Source: a virus. Taken from it: DNA of 37,369 bases. How positions within the stretch are numbered: position 1 is the first letter of the stretch; each line of letters begins with the position of its first letter. The stretch covers positions 1 to 37,369 of the IMG/VR virus record IMGVR_UViG_3300005289_000012; one strand, written 5' to 3'. Below, in pieces: positions 3,391 through 36,967 of this stretch. The position numbers and the translations under genes were made by a program. The notes under the pieces were generated by a model, which did not search any database, was not told where the DNA came from, and worked only from the letters and a program-made list of their open reading frames with translations.

Positions 3391-5520
3391 CCCACCCATG
3401 GAGACCGCGGGGCCAAGCAAAGTCGGCGCGGCTTGGCGCGGGCTTGGGTTCAGCAGCGACGGCGTAAGGTTTTGCGCCTGGCGCTGAGACAGCGTGATGT
3501 CGATGTTCCGCAGCGGGTCCATGACGAAAGCACGACCACCGGGCAAACTGCCCACCACCGAATTCAGCAAGTCATAGCCCTTGCCCAGCATCAGCGCACC
3601 GCTGTTGCTGTTATTCACCGCAGACCCCACCGGCTGAACCTGCATGTAGCTTGCGACCCGCCCATTTGCATGGAGCTGGGCGATTTCTTCGGGCGTGAAG
3701 AAGACCCGCAACTTGTCGTCGCCGATCTCGCGCATCGCCTTGTTGAAAGCCGACTGCGAGAATTTGCCCACCTCGTCGGCTGCGCCGCTTACCGCCTTCG
3801 ATTTCAGGTGTGCCAGAAGCGCATTCTTGATCGTCCCGATGCCGGTTGGCCCCACCTCTTGAGCGAGAACACGGGCTTCGTTCGTGGTGCCATTCACAAT
3901 GAATCGTTTGGCGATCCGCTGCGGGTCCGCTGACGCGCCGTCAGACAGGACAGACCGCACCAACGGGGACGAGTCTTCATAGGCGTAGGCCGCCCGCGTC
4001 GCTGCTCGCGCCTGGTTCACCGCATCGATGGAAGATGCAGGGGCCGCATCCACCTGACGCATTGCCGCCGCCATTTGCGGCGTTGACGGGAGATTGCGGA
4101 AATCGATTCCGCCAGGGTTGGTGATCGGCTGAATGTCCGACCGTTCCAGCACACGGCGCGCCAAGTTCGCAGCCGCCCCCTCGTTGCCGCCCTTGGCGAC
4201 CTCGCGCGAGAGCATGGATTGCAAATTCCGATAGGCCTGCGGCGTGAACGGCTGGCCGGTCTGGAACGCCTCCATGTACTTGCTGATCGTCGGGTTCATG
4301 AACGGCATCAAACCCTCGTCGCCGAGCGCTTGGTTGATGTCGCTAATGACGTGCGAGGAAATCGGTTGTCGATACCCTGGCGATCCTTTCGCGGCGTCCC
4401 ATGCGGTTTGTTCTGCACCACGCAGCCCAGCCTGCCGCCCGGTGATTGCCGAGGTCACTCGCGCGCCGGCTGCATCCACATTCCCGGTGGATGCGCCCAG
4501 ATCGTTCAAGTTGTCGATCAGCCGCGTGTTGTTCTGGTTCTGAGTGCGAGCGAGGCCCTGCAAAGCGTCGTCGGCCGTGTTGGCCCCGAGCTTTGCCAGG
4601 TTCTGCTCTCGCGTGATCTGCACCGGATCGAGCGTCAGACCGCCCCGGGTGGGCGTGGTGCCCGTCAGACGGAAATCGGCCAAGCGGCGAAGCGCATCGG
4701 CGTTCAGGCTTTCACCTGTGGTGCTGGCGCGTCGAACGTCGGCCAGGAGCTGGTTGCGCACGTTCTGAGGCATCTGTCCCCAATCCACGCCGCTTTCTCG
4801 CAGGATGGTCGAAACTCGGCCTTCGAGCTGCATCGGAGGGGCCCGCAGGGCGCTCAAGCGCGTGGCAAGGCTGCTCATCGCGCCAGGAGCAATGCCGCCG
4901 GCAAACGTACCCAGCACCGTAGCCAAGCCTTGCTGAGTGTCTGAGCCCCCAGCTTCGCGAGAAGCCCCGCTCGCAAGGCCGCCGCCAGCCGCCGCCGTCA
5001 GTTGCGATGTCGGATTTGCCGCGAGCTTTGTGAACACCTCCCGGGCCACGCCAGTCGCCACATCCGCGCCACGGTTGGCAACGCCAATCGGCAATGCGCC
5101 ACCGGCTACAAACTTCGTAGCCTCAGCAATGGTTCGCTCGTTCGCATCGCGAGGGCTTGGCAAGCCAATGCGGTCCGCGAACTGCGTGGCGATCATGCCG
5201 AGCGGCAGGGATTTGGGCTTGCGCTCGCCAGTGACAAGGTCGCTCATCGACGGCGCGCGCTCAGGCGTCACCTTGTCTTGCAGGTAGCGAATCGGCTCAG
5301 TGACGATTTGGGCGGCATTCGCCAGACCTTCGATGCCATAGCGCGCAGTCAGGCCGACTTGGCGCGGGATCTCGTTCAACACCCCGCCCGCCTGCACTGC
5401 GGCGGGCTTCGCCTTGGGAATATTGAGGTAGTTGGCCTTGATCGCTGCCTCGATGTCGGGCGCGGCCATGCCGTCCGGGAACTCGATCGTGTGCCCGTTG
5501 ACTTCGACGTATTGAGCCAT
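3358..5520 (-). CDS. Large internal virion (DNA ejection) protein
   Basis: A 720-residue protein starting MAQYVEVNGHTIEFPDGMA, a short N-terminal domain seen at the start of podovirus internal virion proteins. It continues with long Ala/Gly-rich helical regions (for example residues 160-220) and many Gln/Asn-rich helices. It has no enzymatic motif that I can see. It is the last and largest of five neighbouring genes that match the position of podovirus ejection proteins: after the tail genes and before the tail fibre. These proteins leave the virion with the DNA and help build a channel across the envelope. The gene overlaps the upstream ejection gene by one base. Function is inferred from order, size and the N-terminal pattern. 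Confidence 0.68.
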   Translation of the reverse strand: MAQYVEVNGHTIEFPDGMAAPDIEAAIKANYLNIPKAKPAAVQAGGVLNEIPRQVGLTARYGIEGLANAAQIVTEPIRYLQDKVTPERAPSMSDLVTGERKPKSLPLGMIATQFADRIGLPSPRDANERTIAEATKFVAGGALPIGVANRGADVATGVAREVFTKLAANPTSQLTAAAGGGLASGASREAGGSDTQQGLATVLGTFAGGIAPGAMSSLATRLSALRAPPMQLEGRVSTILRESGVDWGQMPQNVRNQLLADVRRASTTGESLNADALRRLADFRLTGTTPTRGGLTLDPVQITREQNLAKLGANTADDALQGLARTQNQNNTRLIDNLNDLGASTGNVDAAGARVTSAITGRQAGLRGAEQTAWDAAKGSPGYRQPISSHVISDINQALGDEGLMPFMNPTISKYMEAFQTGQPFTPQAYRNLQSMLSREVAKGGNEGAAANLARRVLERSDIQPITNPGGIDFRNLPSTPQMAAAMRQVDAAPASSIDAVNQARAATRAAYAYEDSSPLVRSVLSDGASADPQRIAKRFIVNGTTNEARVLAQEVGPTGIGTIKNALLAHLKSKAVSGAADEVGKFSQSAFNKAMREIGDDKLRVFFTPEEIAQLHANGRVASYMQVQPVGSAVNNSNSGALMLGKGYDLLNSVVGSLPGGRAFVMDPLRNIDITLSQRQAQNLTPSLLNPSPRQAAPTLLGPAVSMGGLLAAPRPVGE

Positions 5521-6188
5521 TAGCGCCCCACCGGTTCGAGTTTCTTGGTCTGCGGGTTCCAGCGCATGGTTGCGGCAGAAGCAGGAGCGGGAGTAGCAGT
5601 AGGCGACGGCTCACTTCGACGCGCGTTGCGCTGAGCCCATTGGCTATCGAAGTCCAGCAAGTTCCCATGCTGGTTCAAATGCGCCTTCATCGCGTTGGAC
5701 TTCTCGATCGCGAGGTTGTACTTGCGCTCGAAGTCCTCACGGATACCCCGGTTCGTGTTCCCCTCGTTCTCAAGGCTCGGAAGCCCGCGCAGGAACATGG
5801 CCACATCGCGATCAGACGAGGCGCCAGACCCAGCCTCACGCTGCGCAGGGGCCAGGCGGGATTGAATAGCCGCCATCTCCATGGATGGGCCAGTGCGAAA
5901 CAGCGGCTTGTCAGGCGTGATCTGTTGCCACAGGGAGCCAGTCGAGTTTTCTCGGTTCAACCGACCAAACTCGTTCAAGTCGTCCATGGTCTGGCCGCTG
6001 TTGGCAATGCTCGACTGGAGGTCCGATAGTCGCTTCCGACCTTCCTCGTACATGTCCTTCTGGATCTTTGCCTGATCCTGACGGCTCATGTTCACCGCCC
6101 ACGGCGGGGCGCTATGTTGAGTGGTCGAGGATTGCGCAGGTGAAACTGCGGAACCGCCAAACTGAGCTGCAAGTGCGTCAAGGTCCAT
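5520..6188 (-). CDS. Putative internal virion protein
   Basis: A 222-residue, Ser/Gln/Asn-rich and mostly helical protein beginning MDLDALAAQFGGSAVSPAQ. Its middle carries SDRDVAMFLRGLPSLENEG and its end MRWNPQTKKLEPVGR, both of which I associate with podovirus internal virion proteins. There is no signal or membrane segment. It lies between two other ejection-type genes with one-base overlaps. The role in DNA delivery is inferred. Confidence 0.6.
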   Translation of the reverse strand: MDLDALAAQFGGSAVSPAQSSTTQHSAPPWAVNMSRQDQAKIQKDMYEEGRKRLSDLQSSIANSGQTMDDLNEFGRLNRENSTGSLWQQITPDKPLFRTGPSMEMAAIQSRLAPAQREAGSGASSDRDVAMFLRGLPSLENEGNTNRGIREDFERKYNLAIEKSNAMKAHLNQHGNLLDFDSQWAQRNARRSEPSPTATPAPASAATMRWNPQTKKLEPVGR

Positions 6189-7021
6189 TACTGAAGCCCC
6201 GCTTGTTTCTTGAACGCAGCCGCTGCCGCTGCATTCGGAAAGGTGTATGTTTTTCCGCCGGCAGTAACGGACGCGCCACCACCGGAAGGAGGTCGCGGCG
6301 CAACAGGCGGCGGCAGGTTGTAGGCGTTTTCCGCATTGATGTTGCTCACCTGAGCGTCACGCAGCGGTGCAGCCGCAGCAGCCATCAGCGCCGGGCCCAG
6401 CACAACAAACTGCTCGAACGAGCCTTTGTATCCATTCGCACGGGCGTACTTGAACTGCTTGATCTTTGCGTCGTCCTCTGCTTCGGCAGGCTTTGCCGGG
6501 CCTTGGGCAACGATCTTGCCGTCCGCCCCATAGCGAACTTGGTTTTCGCCCAAGGTGAATGGCTCCTGTGGCTTCGGGAACAAGCGCTGTTCCATCAACT
6601 TGTCTGCAAAGGGTGAGTTCGGCAGCATCAGGTAGTCGTTGAGCAACTGCGGATTGCCAGCGGTCGAAGCCTTGCCGACGCCCGACCCATCGCCGAGCGT
6701 ATCGACCATGTCATAGGTCTGCGGCTTGGCCTGCTCCATCACGCCCAGGAGCCCGGTACGCCATTGCTCTTGGCCCTTTTGCCTGGCCATCTGGCTTTCG
6801 AGCGTCTGCATCTGCATGTCGCGGTACTTGCGCTGTGCCTCGCTCTCCGCCTGCTGCGTGATGCGGTCCTGTGCACCCGTGTAGCCAGCCAGGCCCGCGA
6901 GACCACCACGACCGATCGAGTTCCAAGGCTGGCCGCGACGCGCGCCAGCCATGCCACCGAACGCCGCCGACAGCAGGCCTTGCCCTTCCGGGGTCTTGGC
7001 AAATTCAAGAAGACTGTTCAT
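6188..7021 (-). CDS. Putative internal virion protein
   Basis: A 277-residue protein starting MNSLLEFAKTPEGQGLLSAAF. A glycine-rich N-terminal segment (residues 17-50, GGMAGARRGQPWNSIGRGGL) is followed by a Gln-rich coiled-coil-like stretch (residues 50-90). The C-terminus has a proline-rich linker and SVTAGGKTYTFPNAAAAAAF. This build is common in the internal proteins of P22/SU10-like podoviruses. It overlaps its neighbours by 4 nt upstream and 1 nt downstream. No catalytic motif is visible. Confidence 0.6.
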   Translation of the reverse strand: MNSLLEFAKTPEGQGLLSAAFGGMAGARRGQPWNSIGRGGLAGLAGYTGAQDRITQQAESEAQRKYRDMQMQTLESQMARQKGQEQWRTGLLGVMEQAKPQTYDMVDTLGDGSGVGKASTAGNPQLLNDYLMLPNSPFADKLMEQRLFPKPQEPFTLGENQVRYGADGKIVAQGPAKPAEAEDDAKIKQFKYARANGYKGSFEQFVVLGPALMAAAAAPLRDAQVSNINAENAYNLPPPVAPRPPSGGGASVTAGGKTYTFPNAAAAAAFKKQAGLQ

Positions 7022-13636: not shown

Positions 13637-16054
13637 TTAGAGGCTCATAAGAAGAATCAACACGTCATCCTCATCCCGCCTCATGGCCTGGATGCGGGCT
13701 ATTTCGATCTGCGCCAGTTCAGCGGCTTGTTGCTCCTGCTGACGGCGTCCCAGCTCGATCAGGATCACGCGGTAGAGCGTCATCCAGTCGAAGCCCGGCA
13801 TTTCTGCCACCAACGGGGCGATCGCCTCGCGGACCTCGCGCTTCTGCTCCTTGGCCGGTGCCGGCTGTTCGGCCTTCACCTGGCTCAGGGCAATGCGCTC
13901 GACCACGCGCACGACCTGGGCGACCTTCTGTTCGGCCTCTTCCTCGTCCAGCGCCTTGGGCTTGCGCTGCCACCACAGCTTCGGCGCCGTGTCGGTGATG
14001 ACGAAGCCGTGAGGTGATCCGGTCTGCTCCCCGCTGTACACCAACTCCACCGGATACCCGGTGAACAGGTAGGCGCCCGGCGTGACGATCAGCTCCTTGT
14101 TGGGCGTCACATACTCAAGCTCGACATTCGATCCCGTGACCGAATACGCGCCAGGATCGACGCTCAGCGCCTTCGAGGCGAGCAGCGAGGCATCGGAGCC
14201 GGTGAGGCTGTAGGCCCCAGGACTGACAGAAAGCAGCTTGCCCACCAACAGCCCGGCATTCGAGCCAGACAGGCTGTACACCCCTGGGGTGACGTTCAGC
14301 ACGCTCGACTTGAGCAGCGTCCCATCTGCACCGGTGAAGCCGTAGCTGCCCGGAGTGACATTGATCTCCAGCGCAGGCGAAACTGGCGTGTAGACCAGCT
14401 CCACGTCTGCGCCGCTCACCGCATAGCTGCCAGGCGTCACATTGACGAGCAGGCCGGCACTCAACGCACCATCCGATCCAGTGATCGAGTAGGAGCCCGG
14501 CGTCACTACGAGCGGGCGGCTGTAAACCAGCGCGCCGCTCGATCCCGTCAACAAATAAGAGCCCGGTGTAACCAGTGCGCGACGTGCGTACAGCGTGCGA
14601 GCCGAACTACCCGTCAGCGCATACGAACCAGGCGTGACACGCGACAGCCTGCCGGCAAGCGTTCGGGCACTCGCTCCCGTGAGCGAATAAGACCCGGGCG
14701 TGACCGTGATCTCATACCCTGCCAACACCTTGGCTTGGACCGTCGCCAGCGCGATACACGAACCGTTCGTGTTCTGCGTTGTCGCGGTCTCAGTGCCCGT
14801 CGCGGTGATGGCCTTCTGGCGAATCCGAGAACTGGCCCAGTAAGTGAATGCGCCGGTCGTCTGCCCAGTGTTGAGGCTCGTCCAGCCTGATTGATTGGCG
14901 GGGTAGTTCCCACCCGTGGCATCAAGCCTCGTATCCGCAGCAATCGCCAGACCATTGAGAACGCCCGCAGCGCTCGCCGTGCCAGCCGTGGCCCCTGCAC
15001 CCGTCGCCTGCGCCTTGTTGGTCGCAATCGTGGAACCCGCAAGAACGTCCTGCAGAAACACCACCCAGCAACCAGCACCCGCCACGGGGTTTGTGGCCGT
15101 CATGACCGGCGTGAAGGTCCGCCCAGCCCCTGTGACCGTGACCGTAGCGGTAGCCACCGCGACGGCCTGCGCCACGCTGGACGACACCGCGTTATCGATC
15201 GTGAACGTGCCAGCAAAGTTGCTGGTCAGAGATGAAAGCGAAGCGTCCGGCGTTCCCGCGTCATCGGACTGGTTGAAAAACATCAGCACGCGCTCGGCGT
15301 ACGTCGGCACAGTGACCGATTGAGCGCCTGGCGTTGCTGTCTGCCCCAGATCAAAAAACTGAGGCGTGCCGATGATCGATGGCCGGTACACAAAGGCCGT
15401 GCCGTCGCCGCAAGGAACTGCCGGGTTGTCAGCCATGTCCGGCTGACCTGACACCGTGTCGGCAAACCGGCCCGAACCAGCGTTCATCGGCCAGTTGTGA
15501 ATCAGGCCCGACGTGCGAACAGGAGCAAGAGACCGATATTCCGCCCGGTGCTCAGCCTCAGAGAGAACCGCCGTCCACATGCGCCACCGCGCAATCGTGC
15601 AATCGGTGTACCCGGCAATATCCCCATACCCGCCTAGCTGCGTCGAGCGCTCGCCAGGGATGCCGGCATTCGGAGTGAACGACAGCGTGAGAGCCACCAC
15701 ACCATCCAACAGCATGCGGACAGTGCCCGAGCCGTTGTAATCGATGGCGATGCGGTAATCCCGACCTACCTCAAGCAGGTAGTTGCCGCTAGTGACAGCA
15801 GCGGACGGACCGTTTCTCCCTTCAAGACGGCAGTTGATGCCGTCTGCATTCATGTACAAGCCGACCCAGTTCAGGGTCGAGCTGAGATAGTTCGTCTCGC
15901 CGTACAGCGCGACGATCAGACTGTCTTGGTTGACATCCGCCTCAACGCGGTACAGGCCCGCAACCGTCCAGGCGGTGTTTAGGGCGGGGACCGTGTGGCC
16001 TAGAGGCTCGTGGATGTAGACCGCCTGATTGGCGGTGTCAACGCGAATGGCCAC
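13637..16054 (-). CDS. LamG-like decoration protein with ten VTPGSY repeats
   Basis: An 805-residue protein. Residues 1-215 look like a concanavalin/LamG jelly roll (WTVAGLYRVEADVNQDSLIV, YRIAIDYNGSGTVRMLLDG, and CTIARWRMWTAVLSEAEHRA, the usual ending of such domains). Residues 225-445 form a Thr/Ala/Gly-rich beta region. Residues 447-675 contain ten tandem repeats of about 22 residues with the pattern VTPGSYxxTGxxAxL. The C-terminus (690-805) is highly charged and helical and ends IQAMRRDEDDVLILLMSL. The gene lies in the head module between portal and scaffold. A capsid-surface or head-fibre protein that binds glycans is a reasonable guess, but unproven. Confidence 0.7.
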   Translation of the reverse strand: MAIRVDTANQAVYIHEPLGHTVPALNTAWTVAGLYRVEADVNQDSLIVALYGETNYLSSTLNWVGLYMNADGINCRLEGRNGPSAAVTSGNYLLEVGRDYRIAIDYNGSGTVRMLLDGVVALTLSFTPNAGIPGERSTQLGGYGDIAGYTDCTIARWRMWTAVLSEAEHRAEYRSLAPVRTSGLIHNWPMNAGSGRFADTVSGQPDMADNPAVPCGDGTAFVYRPSIIGTPQFFDLGQTATPGAQSVTVPTYAERVLMFFNQSDDAGTPDASLSSLTSNFAGTFTIDNAVSSSVAQAVAVATATVTVTGAGRTFTPVMTATNPVAGAGCWVVFLQDVLAGSTIATNKAQATGAGATAGTASAAGVLNGLAIAADTRLDATGGNYPANQSGWTSLNTGQTTGAFTYWASSRIRQKAITATGTETATTQNTNGSCIALATVQAKVLAGYEITVTPGSYSLTGASARTLAGRLSRVTPGSYALTGSSARTLYARRALVTPGSYLLTGSSGALVYSRPLVVTPGSYSITGSDGALSAGLLVNVTPGSYAVSGADVELVYTPVSPALEINVTPGSYGFTGADGTLLKSSVLNVTPGVYSLSGSNAGLLVGKLLSVSPGAYSLTGSDASLLASKALSVDPGAYSVTGSNVELEYVTPNKELIVTPGAYLFTGYPVELVYSGEQTGSPHGFVITDTAPKLWWQRKPKALDEEEAEQKVAQVVRVVERIALSQVKAEQPAPAKEQKREVREAIAPLVAEMPGFDWMTLYRVILIELGRRQQEQQAAELAQIEIARIQAMRRDEDDVLILLMSL
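14030..14712 (-). repeat. Ten tandem ~66-bp coding repeats (VTPGSYSLTG units)
   Basis: The repeats encode units beginning VTPGSYSLTG, VTPGSYALTG, VTPGSYLLTG, VTPGSYSITG, VTPGSYAVSG, VTPGSYGFTG, VTPGVYSLSG, VSPGAYSLTG, VDPGAYSVTG and VTPGAYLFTG. Eight units are 22 residues; the fifth is 27 and the ninth 25, both enlarged by an insertion of the VSPALEIN/VTPNKELI type. Divergence between units is high, so the array is old and not freshly slipped. Confidence 0.9.
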
Positions 16055-20688: not shown

Positions 20689-20880
20689 GTGCGAGTTCCT
20701 TGGGGATTGTTCGCGGTGGGGGTGTCGCCATGCGGCTACAGGGCTTGTTCGGGCCCCGCTGGCGTCTGCGCTTCGCACTACTGCCGCTCAGTTCCTGGGA
20801 GTGCGCCAGGCAGGGTAGACCCCCGGCGCAAGGCCGGCCCCGCTTCGGCTGCAGGGTGAAAGGTCATGGAAATGAAGTGG

Positions 20881-20953
20881 CGGGCCGAGGTGGAATCGAA
20901 CCACCAACCTTCGGTTTTGGAGACCGACGCTCTGCCAGTTGAGCTATCGACAC
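20881..20953 (-). tRNA. tRNA-Trp (anticodon CCA)
   Basis: All arms can be folded: D stem GCTC/GAGC, anticodon stem TCGGT/ACCGA around the loop CTCCAAA, variable loop AGGTT, T stem GGTGG/CCACC around TTCGATT, acceptor GTGTCGA/TCGGCCC, discriminator G. The 3' CCA is encoded (20878-20880). The acceptor stem has one mismatch (U2-C71) and a G-U pair. It lies just downstream of a terminator T-run and upstream of terS, so it should be made as part of the late transcript. Confidence 0.92.
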
Positions 20954-27769: not shown

Positions 27770-27798
27770 ATGTTAGCCGACTTACAGATACCGCGCAA
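27770..27798 (-). promoter_or_regulatory. PR-like promoter for cro and the early operon
   Basis: On the minus strand, TTGCGC (27798-27793), a 17-nt spacer and TAACAT (27775-27770). The -35 overlaps operator O2 and the -10 overlaps O1. The predicted start is about 3 nt before the cro ATG, so the mRNA may be leaderless. Confidence 0.6.
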
Positions 27799-27836
27799 GG
27801 GTGCTTACGACCGTTCGACGTTTAATCTCACTTACA
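27771..27836. promoter_or_regulatory. Operator region (OR-like): three 16-bp operators between cro and cI
   Basis: O1 TGTTAGCCGACTTACA (27771-27786), O2 CGCAAGGGTGCTTACG (27794-27809) and O3 TTTAATCTCACTTACA (27821-27836) are imperfect dyads of the form TGTAAG-N4-CTTACA. Their centres are 23 and 27 bp apart. O3 covers the likely cI -10 (TTTAAT) and the A of the cI ATG, so cI mRNA may also be leaderless, as from lambda PRM. Confidence 0.68.
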
Positions 27837-28510
27837 TGAGCACACTGCAAGAGCGAATCGCGGAATTGATGGATGTCACCGGCTGGAAAGTCGGGGATCT
27901 GGCTGAGATCGCAGGTGTGTCCTCGTCCGCCGCCTCGCAGTGGAAGGACGGCCCCACCATGTCGATCAAGCTGGAGCCGGCTGTTCGCCTTTCAGCGAAG
28001 TGCGGCTACAGCGCGCTTTGGATCGCAAACGGCAAGGGACCAAAAAAGGCGGCGATTCCGCCAGGAGACGGCATTCTTGAACCCGAATACGCAGGCGCGC
28101 CACGGCCGCCAAGGCAAGTGCCAGTGGTAGGCACGGCAAAGCTCGGCTCGGACGGGTTTTATGAGGAACTGAGCCCTGTTGTGGGCGCTGGTGACGGCCA
28201 CATAGAAATCGCCACGGAAGACCCCAACGCCTACGGGCTGCGCGTCCGTGGACAGAGCATGTTCCCGGCCATCAGAGACGGCTGGTATGTGCTTGTCGAG
28301 CCCAATGGACGGCCGGCGATTGGGGAATATGTGTTGGTCAAGCTCCTGACCGGACAGAAGATGGTCAAGGAGCTACTGAACAGCCGCGCCGGCTCGTATG
28401 AGGTGGTGAGCGTCAACGGCGGCGAGCGGATGACATTTCACAGCTCGGAGATTGACAGTGTGCAAGCCGTGGGCGCGGTGGTGTCGCCGAGCAAATGGCG
28501 TCCGGAGTAA
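27836..28510 (+). CDS. cI: CI-like repressor with S24 self-cleavage domain
   Basis: A 224-residue protein starting MSTLQERIAELMDVTGWKVG. The helix-turn-helix lies at about residues 17-38 (DLAEIAGVSSSAASQWKDG). A possible RecA-stimulated cleavage point is A86-G87 in EPEYAGAP. The S24/LexA domain has Ser141 in RGQSMFPAI and Lys178 in QKMVKEL. It maintains lysogeny by binding the operators here and near 29.3 kb, and is inactivated in the SOS response. No ribosome-binding site precedes the ATG, which fits a leaderless transcript. Two further genes follow closely. Confidence 0.9.
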   Translation: MSTLQERIAELMDVTGWKVGDLAEIAGVSSSAASQWKDGPTMSIKLEPAVRLSAKCGYSALWIANGKGPKKAAIPPGDGILEPEYAGAPRPPRQVPVVGTAKLGSDGFYEELSPVVGAGDGHIEIATEDPNAYGLRVRGQSMFPAIRDGWYVLVEPNGRPAIGEYVLVKLLTGQKMVKELLNSRAGSYEVVSVNGGERMTFHSSEIDSVQAVGAVVSPSKWRPE

Positions 28511-30465: not shown

Positions 30466-30486
30466 CAGTCAATCGCGCAAAAACAC

Positions 30487-30543
30487 TTGCGTAACCTATG
30501 CACCGTGCATAGAATCAATCCCGTGCACAGAACGTGCATAGAA
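30487..30543 (+). promoter_or_regulatory. Promoter with Arc/Mnt-type operators
   Basis: TTGCGT (30487-30492), 17 nt, TAGAAT (30510-30515) form a plus-strand promoter. CTATGCACCGTGCATAG (30496-30512) is a perfect 17-bp palindrome covering the spacer and -10. GTGCAYAGAA is repeated at 30505, 30523 and 30534. The region separates two divergent ribbon-helix-helix genes. Confidence 0.72.
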
Positions 30544-30559
30544 CTAGGAGTGTAGACCA

Positions 30560-30730
30560 ATGAAAGCGAAAACCGGTGGCTCCAAGCCCATTCAGCTCCG
30601 TCTGGACGCTGAGACCCATCAAAAGCTGATGCAGGAAGCCGCTCGACAAGAGCGCTCCATGACGTGGCTGGTGAACCGCATTCTGGCCGAGGCCATCAAG
30701 TCGATGCCGGCCCAACAAGCTACCCCCTAG
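30560..30730 (+). CDS. Small ribbon-helix-helix (Arc/Mnt-like) protein
   Basis: A 56-residue protein: MKAKTGGSKPIQLRLDAETH then QKLMQEAARQERSMTWLVNR. One strand (IQLRLD) and two helices fit the ribbon-helix-helix fold, with IQLRLD giving the DNA-contact strand. AGGAG stands about 10 nt before the ATG. It diverges from the larger Arc-like gene and shares its operator region. It probably represses its own promoter and the genes behind it. Confidence 0.74.
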   Translation: MKAKTGGSKPIQLRLDAETHQKLMQEAARQERSMTWLVNRILAEAIKSMPAQQATP

Positions 30731-30742
30731 CCACAAAAGGCG

Positions 30743-30774
30743 AAGCCCCAACAGCTTGGACCCTGTTGAGGCTT
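30743..30774 (+). terminator. Attenuator-like hairpin
   Basis: AAGCCCCAACAG pairs with CTGTTGAGGCTT around an 8-nt loop, with a single C-A mismatch. The T tract after it is short (TTCTTGAT), so it may be a weak terminator or an RNA-protecting structure between the small repressor gene and the next gene. Confidence 0.5.
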
Positions 30775-30811
30775 CTTGATCACACCCACCAGCAATAGCA
30801 GAAGGATCACC

Positions 30812-31822
30812 ATGAATTCTACGATCAAGCCCGCGAATGTGGAAATGAGCGATTCCATGATCGTCATCCAGATTCGCACCAACACCAGGGACTTCATCCA
30901 GTTCCAGACCATCCACGCCCCGACTGCTGGCTTCAAACGGGCACCCCACGACCAAGGCCTCGCGCTGCTGTCCAAAGACACGGGCGAACCCATCGCCTTG
31001 ATCAACGCCAATCGCTTCCTGCATGAGATCGGCGAGCTGGTGCATGTGGAGGTCCGCACCGACCCGGCCAAAGCCCCGATGGAGTACCAGGCCGGTACTC
31101 GCTTGATGGATGCTTGCGCCCGTCTCGCGAAAGAGACCGGCGGCGCTCTGTTCGACTCGCGCGGCAAACCTCTCTCGGAAGCCGAGCAAGCCGCCATTGC
31201 CTTGCACATCGACACTGTCATGAGCGAGCGGCAGTCGATGGAATTTCGCCAAATCAAGGAGGCGGGCGAAAAGCTGCCGAACGGCAATCGGCTTACGCGC
31301 GAGGACGATATTTCGTTCATCACCACGATCCGCACCAATCGCGGGAAGTATCTGAGCACGAACTACTTCGACGCACCCATCGAGCCCTATTTCGAGGGCA
31401 AGATTACGGGGTATCGCATGGCTCATGAAGTGCTGAGCTTCATCGCCGCGCACAAGGTGAAGCACTTCCCCCTGCAGCACGTCATGGAGGCGGTGTATTC
31501 GATCACCGCCAAGGATGTGCCGAACACGGTTCGATTCAATACGCCCGGCGTTTCTGGTGCCGCTGACGCCTTCGCGCACGCGATGGAGGAAATGATCCGC
31601 TATGCGGGCCGCCACTGCGATCACCTTCGCTGGCTGAGTTCCATGGTCGAATACGAGCAGCAGAACAACGCGCGCTATGACGAACTGCGCCTCAGCCAAA
31701 AGGCTGAGTTCGTGGAGCGCATGAAGGAAGCCCGCGAGAAGAAGCGCCGCCAGCAGGCCGTGGGCGCTCGCCTGGTCAAGGCATCCGCGACCAAAGCGCG
31801 GAAAGAGGCGGTGGCAGCATGA
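30812..31822 (+). CDS. Unrecognised 336-residue early protein
   Basis: GAAGGA lies about 6 nt before the ATG. The protein begins MNSTIKPANVEMSDSMIVIQ. A central part contains SFITTIRTNRGKYLSTNYFD and HKVKHFPLQHVMEAVYSITA. After about residue 290 it becomes a strongly basic Lys/Arg/Ala tail (EKKRRQQAVGARLVKASATK). I see no enzyme motif and no family I can name. It is the first large gene behind the Arc/Mnt-like switch, the place where P22 has its antirepressor gene, but there is no visible resemblance to antirepressors. It overlaps the next gene by 4 nt. Confidence 0.68.
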   Translation: MNSTIKPANVEMSDSMIVIQIRTNTRDFIQFQTIHAPTAGFKRAPHDQGLALLSKDTGEPIALINANRFLHEIGELVHVEVRTDPAKAPMEYQAGTRLMDACARLAKETGGALFDSRGKPLSEAEQAAIALHIDTVMSERQSMEFRQIKEAGEKLPNGNRLTREDDISFITTIRTNRGKYLSTNYFDAPIEPYFEGKITGYRMAHEVLSFIAAHKVKHFPLQHVMEAVYSITAKDVPNTVRFNTPGVSGAADAFAHAMEEMIRYAGRHCDHLRWLSSMVEYEQQNNARYDELRLSQKAEFVERMKEAREKKRRQQAVGARLVKASATKARKEAVAA

Positions 31823-36185: not shown

Positions 36186-36225
36186 AACAAATTTGTTGAC
36201 GATTGTTCGCAATTTTGTTTATACT
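36186..36225 (+). promoter_or_regulatory. hicAB promoter and operator
   Basis: TTGACG (36196-36201), 17 nt, TTATAC (36219-36224) is a near-consensus promoter. AACAAATTTGTT (36186-36197) is a perfect 12-bp palindrome that overlaps the -35, a likely site for autorepression by HicB. Confidence 0.7.
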
Positions 36226-36256
36226 CCATCCATCCCAACAACGGAAAAGGACAGCA

Positions 36257-36433
36257 GTGAAGATCAGCGAATTCAAGCGGTGGCTTGAAGCGCAGGGGGC
36301 CAGAGTCGAGAACGGTACAAATCACTGGAAGGTGTACCTGAACGGCAAACAGACCACCCTGCCAAGACACCCAAGTAAGGAGCTGAAGGAAGGTACTCGC
36401 AAAGCCATCCTGAAGCAGTTAGGAATCAAGTGA
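36257..36433 (+). CDS. hicA: HicA-like mRNA interferase toxin
   Basis: The GTG at 36257 gives 58 residues (KISEFKRWLEAQGARVENGT), the normal HicA length. The double-stranded RNA-binding-like fold has its catalytic His at about H23 in GTNHWKVY, and the typical PRHPSKELKEGTRKAILKQL end. HicA cuts mRNA when not bound by HicB. The gene precedes its antitoxin, as usual. On a phage it may stabilise the lysogen or block other phages. Confidence 0.86.
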   Translation: MKISEFKRWLEAQGARVENGTNHWKVYLNGKQTTLPRHPSKELKEGTRKAILKQLGIK

Positions 36434-36547
36434 GAGGCGGGCCCGAAAGGGCCTACCTCCACACTCTTTGCTGCTGAGCCTGTCGTTGTTTTTTGCCGGC
36501 GCTCTGCCCGGCCACGTAACCGTAACGTAATCATCAGAGGTACGCGT

Positions 36548-36967
36548 ATGTTCAACTTTCCCGCCCATCTTGAGGCGCAACCGGAAGGCGGTTTTACCGT
36601 CACGTTCCGGGATGTGCCCGAGGCCATCACTCAAGGCGATTCCCGAGAGGAAGCGCTTTCCGAAGCTGTAGACGCTCTCGTCACCGCCATGGAGTTCTAC
36701 TTTGACGATGGCCGCCCCGTCCCCTCTCCTAGCAAGGCCCGCAAGGGTGAGGAAGAGGTAACTTTGCCTGTCTCGATCTCGGCCAAAGTTCTTCTGCTCA
36801 ATGCAATGCTGGAAGAAAGAAAGCGCCCGGCCGATCTCGCGCGCGCTATGCGCGTGAAGCCCCAGGAGGTCAATCGAATCATGGATCTCCACCATGCAAC
36901 CAAGATCGATACGGTCGCCGACGCATTGCGCGCACTCGGCCGGCGGTTTGATCTTCGCGTCGTCTGA
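36548..36967 (+). CDS. hicB: HicB-like antitoxin
   Basis: A 139-residue protein. Residues 1-50 form the HicB partial RNase H-like fold (MFNFPAHLEAQPEGGFTVTF and PEAITQGDSREEALSEAVDA). A C-terminal helix-turn-helix (RPADLARAMRVKPQEVNRIM) can bind the operator. It neutralises HicA and represses the operon. The 114-nt gap after hicA contains a hairpin (GGCCC-GAAA-GGGCC) that may lower antitoxin or toxin expression; no second promoter is clear. Confidence 0.86.
   Translation: MFNFPAHLEAQPEGGFTVTFRDVPEAITQGDSREEALSEAVDALVTAMEFYFDDGRPVPSPSKARKGEEEVTLPVSISAKVLLLNAMLEERKRPADLARAMRVKPQEVNRIMDLHHATKIDTVADALRALGRRFDLRVV

Follow-up and report, generated by a model that had tools for sequence, protein, structure and literature searches.

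Does a pair of small divergent genes beside cI and int in a temperate phage form a second immunity switch of the P22 immI kind, and if so, what does it keep under control? Mnt and Arc are textbook ribbon-helix-helix (RHH) repressors that, to our knowledge, have hardly been described outside enteric phages of the P22 type. In P22, the immI circuit tunes the frequency of lysogeny after infection (PMC11016777). The locus described here lies in a stretch of 37,369 bases with identical 110-bp ends (hereafter, the window). The phage is temperate and encodes SU10-type portal, capsid, and adaptor proteins, a CI/S24 repressor, a P22-type Cro match, and an integrase. A tRNA-Trp (CCA) gene (20878-20953, minus strand) is located just upstream of its late-gene block, and a HicA toxin and HicB-like antitoxin pair (36203-36967) is located downstream of the integrase gene.

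Our analysis points to a divergent secondary immunity module that belongs to the same kind as P22 immI but has a shifted operator code and harbors an orphan gene in the ant slot. For the switch itself, we estimate the probability of this reading at roughly 0.78.

Architecture of the Locus

Comparison with P22 immI (X01916) revealed the same order and orientation of genes, similar gaps (90 bp in P22 vs. 94 bp in the window between mnt and arc; 68 vs. 81 bp between arc and the next gene), and similar promoter geometry, the distances from mnt to the Pant elements in P22 being nearly equal to those from the Mnt-like gene to the -35 and -10 elements in the window (Table 1). Both systems comprise a long and a short RHH repressor that are divergently encoded over a shared operator and promoter region, with overlapping promoters and an odd-centered CACnGTG operator, and in both an antisense RNA with a 13-bp terminator, predicted in the case of the window, precedes the third gene. 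These observations uphold the proposal of an immI-like switch made in the initial annotation, with the corrections given below.

The two systems also differ. The palindrome of the window lies in the promoter spacer and two tandem half-sites lie at the transcription start, the operator half-site is GTGCATAG rather than the GTGGACCT of P22, and the repressor is about twice the length of P22 Mnt. The locus is positioned beside cI and int, whereas P22 immI is positioned between genes 16 and 9. Moreover, the third gene is not Ant (P22_AR_N/C), and because this feature was looked for in the window and not found, we do not file the module as a complete P22 immI. As judged by sequence comparison, the module is built like P22 immI and probably works like it.

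Table 1. Coordinates of predicted features of the immI-like locus and associated genes in the window.
Feature	Position	Strand	Remarks
CI/S24 repressor (main repressor)	27773-28510		
Mnt-like repressor (predicted), 169 aa	29956-30465	-	N-terminal RHH, recognition strand TIYMR, then alpha-helical hairpin tail
-35 TTGCGT, Pant-like promoter (rightward)	30487-30492	+	17-bp spacer; same place as annotated P22 Pant -35
Operator palindrome CTATGCAC-C-GTGCATAG	30496-30512		Odd-centered, 8-bp arms around one C; in promoter spacer, overlaps -10
Half-site repeat 1, GTGCATAGAA	30505-30514	+	Right arm of the palindrome
-10 TAGAAT, Pant-like promoter	30510-30515	+	94% mean pairwise identity, six relatives
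Half-site repeat 2, GTGCACAGAA	30523-30532	+	At expected transcription start; first 9 nt invariant in 6/6 TIY-strand loci
Half-site repeat 3, GTGCATAGAA	30534-30543	+	11 bp after repeat 2; first 9 nt invariant in 6/6 TIY-strand loci
Small RHH protein in Arc position, 56 aa	30560-30730	+	PHROG 3180 Arc-like repressor, E = 4e-6
Predicted sar-like antisense RNA, about 75 nt	30735-30809	-	Between small gene and cargo; complementary to cargo ribosome site 30800-30806
Antisense terminator hairpin	30742-30775	-	13 bp, then TTTT
-10 TAGAAT, antisense Psar-like promoter	30816-30821	-	Just inside cargo start codon
Orphan cargo in ant slot, 336 aa	30812-31822	+	Coding-like codon GC profile
Second cargo ORF, 295 aa	31819-32706	+	No family match; start overlaps stop of first

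The Divergent RHH Proteins

The leftward protein matched the Pfam Arc model (34.8 bits vs. a cut-off of 20.4; E = 1.4e-8) and had been described as an Arc-like protein carrying a long coiled coil that P22 Arc lacks. When aligned from the first residue, however, the leftward protein (ARTDPTIYMRIP) and P22 Mnt (ARDDPHFNFRMP) share the N-terminal register ARxDPxxxxRxP, with the recognition strand of the window in MARxDPTIYMRIP. The protein combines this Mnt-type N-terminal arm with an RHH core, although its alignment with P22 Mnt (PDB 1mnt, residues 1-74) was weak (E = 0.04, over residues 2-78). Because of its place, length, and N-terminal arm, the leftward protein is, by these sequence characters, the counterpart of Mnt, the long repressor of P22, and not of Arc. 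The strands differ at positions 6 and 8 (H6/N8 in P22 Mnt vs. T6/Y8 in the window), as do the operators.

The tail of the leftward protein was modeled with AF2 from a nine-sequence alignment (pLDDT 84) as a hairpin of two helices (residues 49-118 and 122-166; pLDDT above 90). A search of PDB folds with the model returned generic coiled coils alone, none at E <= 0.001. Mnt has a C-terminal oligomerization domain (Waldburger and Sauer, 1995, as cited in PMC3325190). A helical tail is therefore to be expected in the leftward protein. Because its P22 counterpart is Mnt, we reject the idea that the coiled coil is new relative to P22, although the predicted hairpin is long. Among relatives, the tail ranges from about 30 to 210 residues and varies in sequence as well.

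The rightward protein yielded only sub-threshold Pfam matches (RHH_1, FitA-like, and TraY), exceeded no family cut-off, and lacks the N-terminal arm of Arc; a tblastn search with this protein against phage records recovered no relatives. The earlier statement that two RHH genes diverge from the promoter thus stands insofar as both genes encode RHH-type motifs, but at unequal strength, with the leftward protein above the Pfam Arc cut-off and the rightward one below threshold.

Operator and Promoters

The 17-bp palindrome CTATGCACCGTGCATAG was found to be exact and to cover the promoter, as previously noted. Palindromes of at least this length were recovered in 8 of 5,000 dinucleotide shuffles of the 94-bp gap, and no second copy was detected in the window, even at three mismatches. 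The window contains one other palindrome with arms of at least 8 bp (ACACGAACCGTTCGTGT, 14756-14772, within a late ORF) and no further ones. Three GTGCAYAGAA repeats are present, which occurred in 1 of 1,000 shuffles of the gap. They do not reach the small gene as had been described: the first is the right arm of the palindrome, and the last is separated from the ATG by 16 bp that include an AGGAG ribosome site. The palindrome and repeats go beyond what chance would give, and related phages have them as well.

Alignment of six gaps from loci with a TIY strand showed that the tandem half-sites and the TTGC of the -35 element are invariant, that the -10 element is 94% identical, and that the palindrome is 82% identical, while the remaining columns are 57% identical and the leader 37%. 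The putative Pant-like promoter was not listed by a consensus promoter scan because its -35 element is weak, and the case for it rests on this conservation. The leftward promoter is a poor match to consensus, and the Mnt-like gene of the window has no evident ribosome site. In P22, Mnt activates its own promoter. In five related loci (L005, L015, L016, L021, and L064), the repressor start codon sits directly against an additional operator site (CTATGCACTGTGCCA when read from the opposite side) that leaves a ribosome site no room; the window has lost that site.

Covariation of Operator and Recognition Strand

An exact scan of IMG/VR for the palindrome returned six contigs, approximately the number expected by chance in a collection of that size according to our own estimate. 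In one of these (L005), the palindrome is flanked by the genes for a MARTDPTIYMRIP protein and for a short RHH protein; the others (L002, L003, L004, L006, and L007) are not immI-type modules. On L003, an unrelated viral contig, two intergenic copies of CTATGCACnGTGCATAG lie 34 bp apart (4688-4738) with an ORF for a ParA-like ATPase (5694-6509) nearby, and this pair is possibly a partition site.

An N-terminal alignment identified 45 Mnt-like loci. GTGCAYAGA was present, in 2-3 copies each, in all five mnt-arc gaps associated with a TIY strand and in none of 25 other gaps, a split with a chance of 1 in C(30,5), or about 7e-6. Loci with QLNF or QVNF strands mostly feature an AGCAC(C/G)GTGCT palindrome, while the QFNL strand is associated with ATCACGGT, HFRL with GCACGGTGC, and the HFNF of P22 Mnt with GGTCCACGGTGGACC; a CACnGTG core is common to several palindromes of other strands. 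As a blind test, IMG/VR was scanned with the operator block alone (GTGCACAGANNGTGCATAGA). Of the nine contigs returned, four were already known and one (L064) was a new true case; the others amount to two independent chance matches (L060/L062/L063, which are one sequence, and L065) that are not immI-type modules. L064 encodes a sixth TIY repressor together with MARNDPTIYMRIP, an arc gene, a sar-like RNA, and a KilA-N gene. Within this set of sequences, GTGCAYAGAA-type repeats track the recognition strand of the Mnt-like protein, as in an immI system, such that operator and strand co-vary; this code rests partly on shared ancestry, since the TIY loci have a common origin. The specificity of Arc and Mnt is set by a short N-terminal region (Knight and Sauer, 1989, as cited in PMC3325190).

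L064 (IMGVR_UViG_2600255066_000002) resembles the window in its recognition strand, its long-tailed repressor (167 aa; 43% identity over 150 aa), its operator block, and its sar-like RNA in a 76-nt gap, but its Arc-position protein is unrelated in sequence and a KilA-N protein occupies the slot. L005/L014 (IMGVR_UViG_3300047523_000005) is identical to the window in 13 N-terminal residues and in the palindrome arms, but has a repressor of 253 aa and a slot with ORF6N followed by Rha; its arc and next gene overlap, leaving a sar-like RNA no room. Scans of IMG/VR and genomes with the full Mnt-like and Arc-like proteins recovered no relatives; distant relatives were instead recovered by searching with the operator pattern and by N-terminal alignment. 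In L008, L009, and L025, the Mnt-like and Arc-like proteins share a recognition strand (QFNLR or QINIR), which is not the case in the window or P22. Since the strand is shared, both proteins of these loci probably recognize a common set of sites, in the manner of CI and Cro.

A Putative sar-like Antisense RNA

An element overlooked in the initial annotation lies between the arc-position gene and the third gene and has, by comparison, the character of sar. The fold z-score of the antisense strand is -4.0, compared to -1.5 for the sense strand. The 3' arm of the P22 sar terminator stem (CAGUUGGGGCUUC; PMC13397905) and the corresponding arm in the window (CUGUUGGGGCUUC) are nearly identical and occupy the same position. 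Similar elements were identified in L008, L011, L017, L019, L020, L022, L024, L025, L058, and L064. Across ten sequences, the stem retains 116 of its 120 pair cells, with 16 G-U wobbles on the antisense strand vs. 1 on the sense strand. The distance between the antisense -10 element and the start codon is 0-4 nt at every one of the 13 loci compared. No Rfam family matches the element. Comparison establishes the antisense element, which is presumably expressed.

The Gene in the ant Slot

The orphan has no relative or family in Pfam, PHROGs, NCBIfam, PADLOC, phages, IMG/VR, or GTDB genomes, apart from a weak PHROG match of 24 residues to a family of unknown function. Searches of phage records by tblastn with both cargo genes recovered no relatives, and an AF2 model of the orphan made without an alignment was unusable (pLDDT 40). 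Compared with P22 Ant, the orphan has no Pfam match (P22_AR_N/C), no antirepressor PHROG, and an hhalign probability of 0.1 against an Ant alignment.

An antirepressor-type domain is encoded behind the small gene in 23 of 27 distinct loci with an immI-type layout: P22_AR_N in seven, Bro-N in six (once as third gene), ORF6N in four (once as second gene), KilA-N in three, Rha in two (once with KilAC), and AntA in one. The four loci without such a domain are L017, L021, L029, and the window. Variation in this slot among P22-like phages has already been noted under the term 'ant moron' (PMC2629481). Among the loci compared, a swapped slot gene is the rule rather than a peculiarity of the window phage. 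The earlier view of an old switch governing new cargo therefore holds in that the cargo is not P22 Ant, but not in the sense that the exchange is special to this phage.

Because relatives fill the slot with interchangeable antirepressor-type genes, the orphan may plausibly take the functional place of Ant. Its single most likely role, at a little below even odds, would be that of an antirepressor acting on the CI/S24 repressor. More speculatively, the orphan may be the first of a new class of phage antirepressors that is unrelated to Ant, Bro-N, KilA-N, ORF6N, AntA, and Rha and that occupies the interchangeable slot of an Mnt-Arc-sar cassette whose operator specificity is readable from a few recognition-strand residues.

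Proposed Circuit and Alternative Explanations

In a lysogen, the Mnt-like repressor, multimerized via its helical tail, would bind the palindrome and the two tandem half-sites and thereby shut off the arc-like and orphan genes. The short RHH protein, whose gene comes first in the rightward operon, may damp this operon after infection as Arc does, a role suggested by its position. A sar-like RNA transcribed from the promoter inside the cargo would cover the cargo ribosome-binding site and silence the gene post-transcriptionally. Repression and silencing together would make the orphan a product that the prophage must keep off.

In a different view of the cargo, close to that of the initial annotation, the switch is intact but times an operon of moron or early-function type that has no part in repressor inactivation. 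The rightward operon continues through several ORFs without a family toward the integrase, the slot genes of L017, L021, and L029 also lack an antirepressor domain, and the P22-like phages ST64T, ST104, and Para1 keep mnt beside a gene of unknown kind (PMC2629481). Yet a sar-like RNA placed at the orphan start codon suggests that this gene specifically requires silencing in the lysogen, and the slot gene is of antirepressor type in most relatives; we regard the moron explanation as clearly possible, if appreciably below even odds. It is improbable that the module is instead a toxin-antitoxin or plasmid-maintenance system in which an RHH pair regulates itself and the orphan is a toxin or accessory gene. 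The best scores of the small protein to FitA/RelB/CopG-type RHH models, the orphan's lack of an antirepressor domain, and the HicAB pair elsewhere in the window would fit such a pair, but a divergent pair of RHH genes followed by a sar-like RNA and a third gene is the layout of immI, most loci of this layout carry antirepressor-type genes, and the orphan matches no toxin family.

The operator could also be assigned differently, with the palindrome and repeats serving the Arc-position protein rather than the Mnt-like protein. The palindrome indeed occupies the promoter spacer, as O-arc does in P22, and its half-sites contain TAGA, like those of Arc. This TAGA, however, reads outward from the center rather than inward, and the odd-centered CACnGTG core is of the O-mnt type and recurs in other Mnt-like groups. 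Furthermore, the Arc-position proteins of the six TIY loci diverge widely while their operator sites remain constant. These observations render assignment to the Arc-position protein unlikely and favor the Mnt-like protein as the one that reads the operator.

Distribution of the Cassette and Further Slot Genes

Collectively, comparison suggests that many phages carry this control cassette together with its antisense RNA, and that its operator code can be read while its third gene can be swapped. Of greater interest than the locus itself is this wider pattern: the operator code, a sar-like RNA in phages distant from P22, antirepressors that replace one another, and an orphan in their slot. It provides natural pairs of RHH strands and operators for testing rules of recognition, and genes in the slot under a sar-like RNA may offer a sequence-only route to new antirepressors. 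Slot genes without a Pfam family behind Mnt-Arc-like pairs were also identified at L017:2315-2650, L021:2500-2745, and L029:2171-2725. Since L017 too has a sar-like RNA, its slot gene is a further candidate antirepressor.
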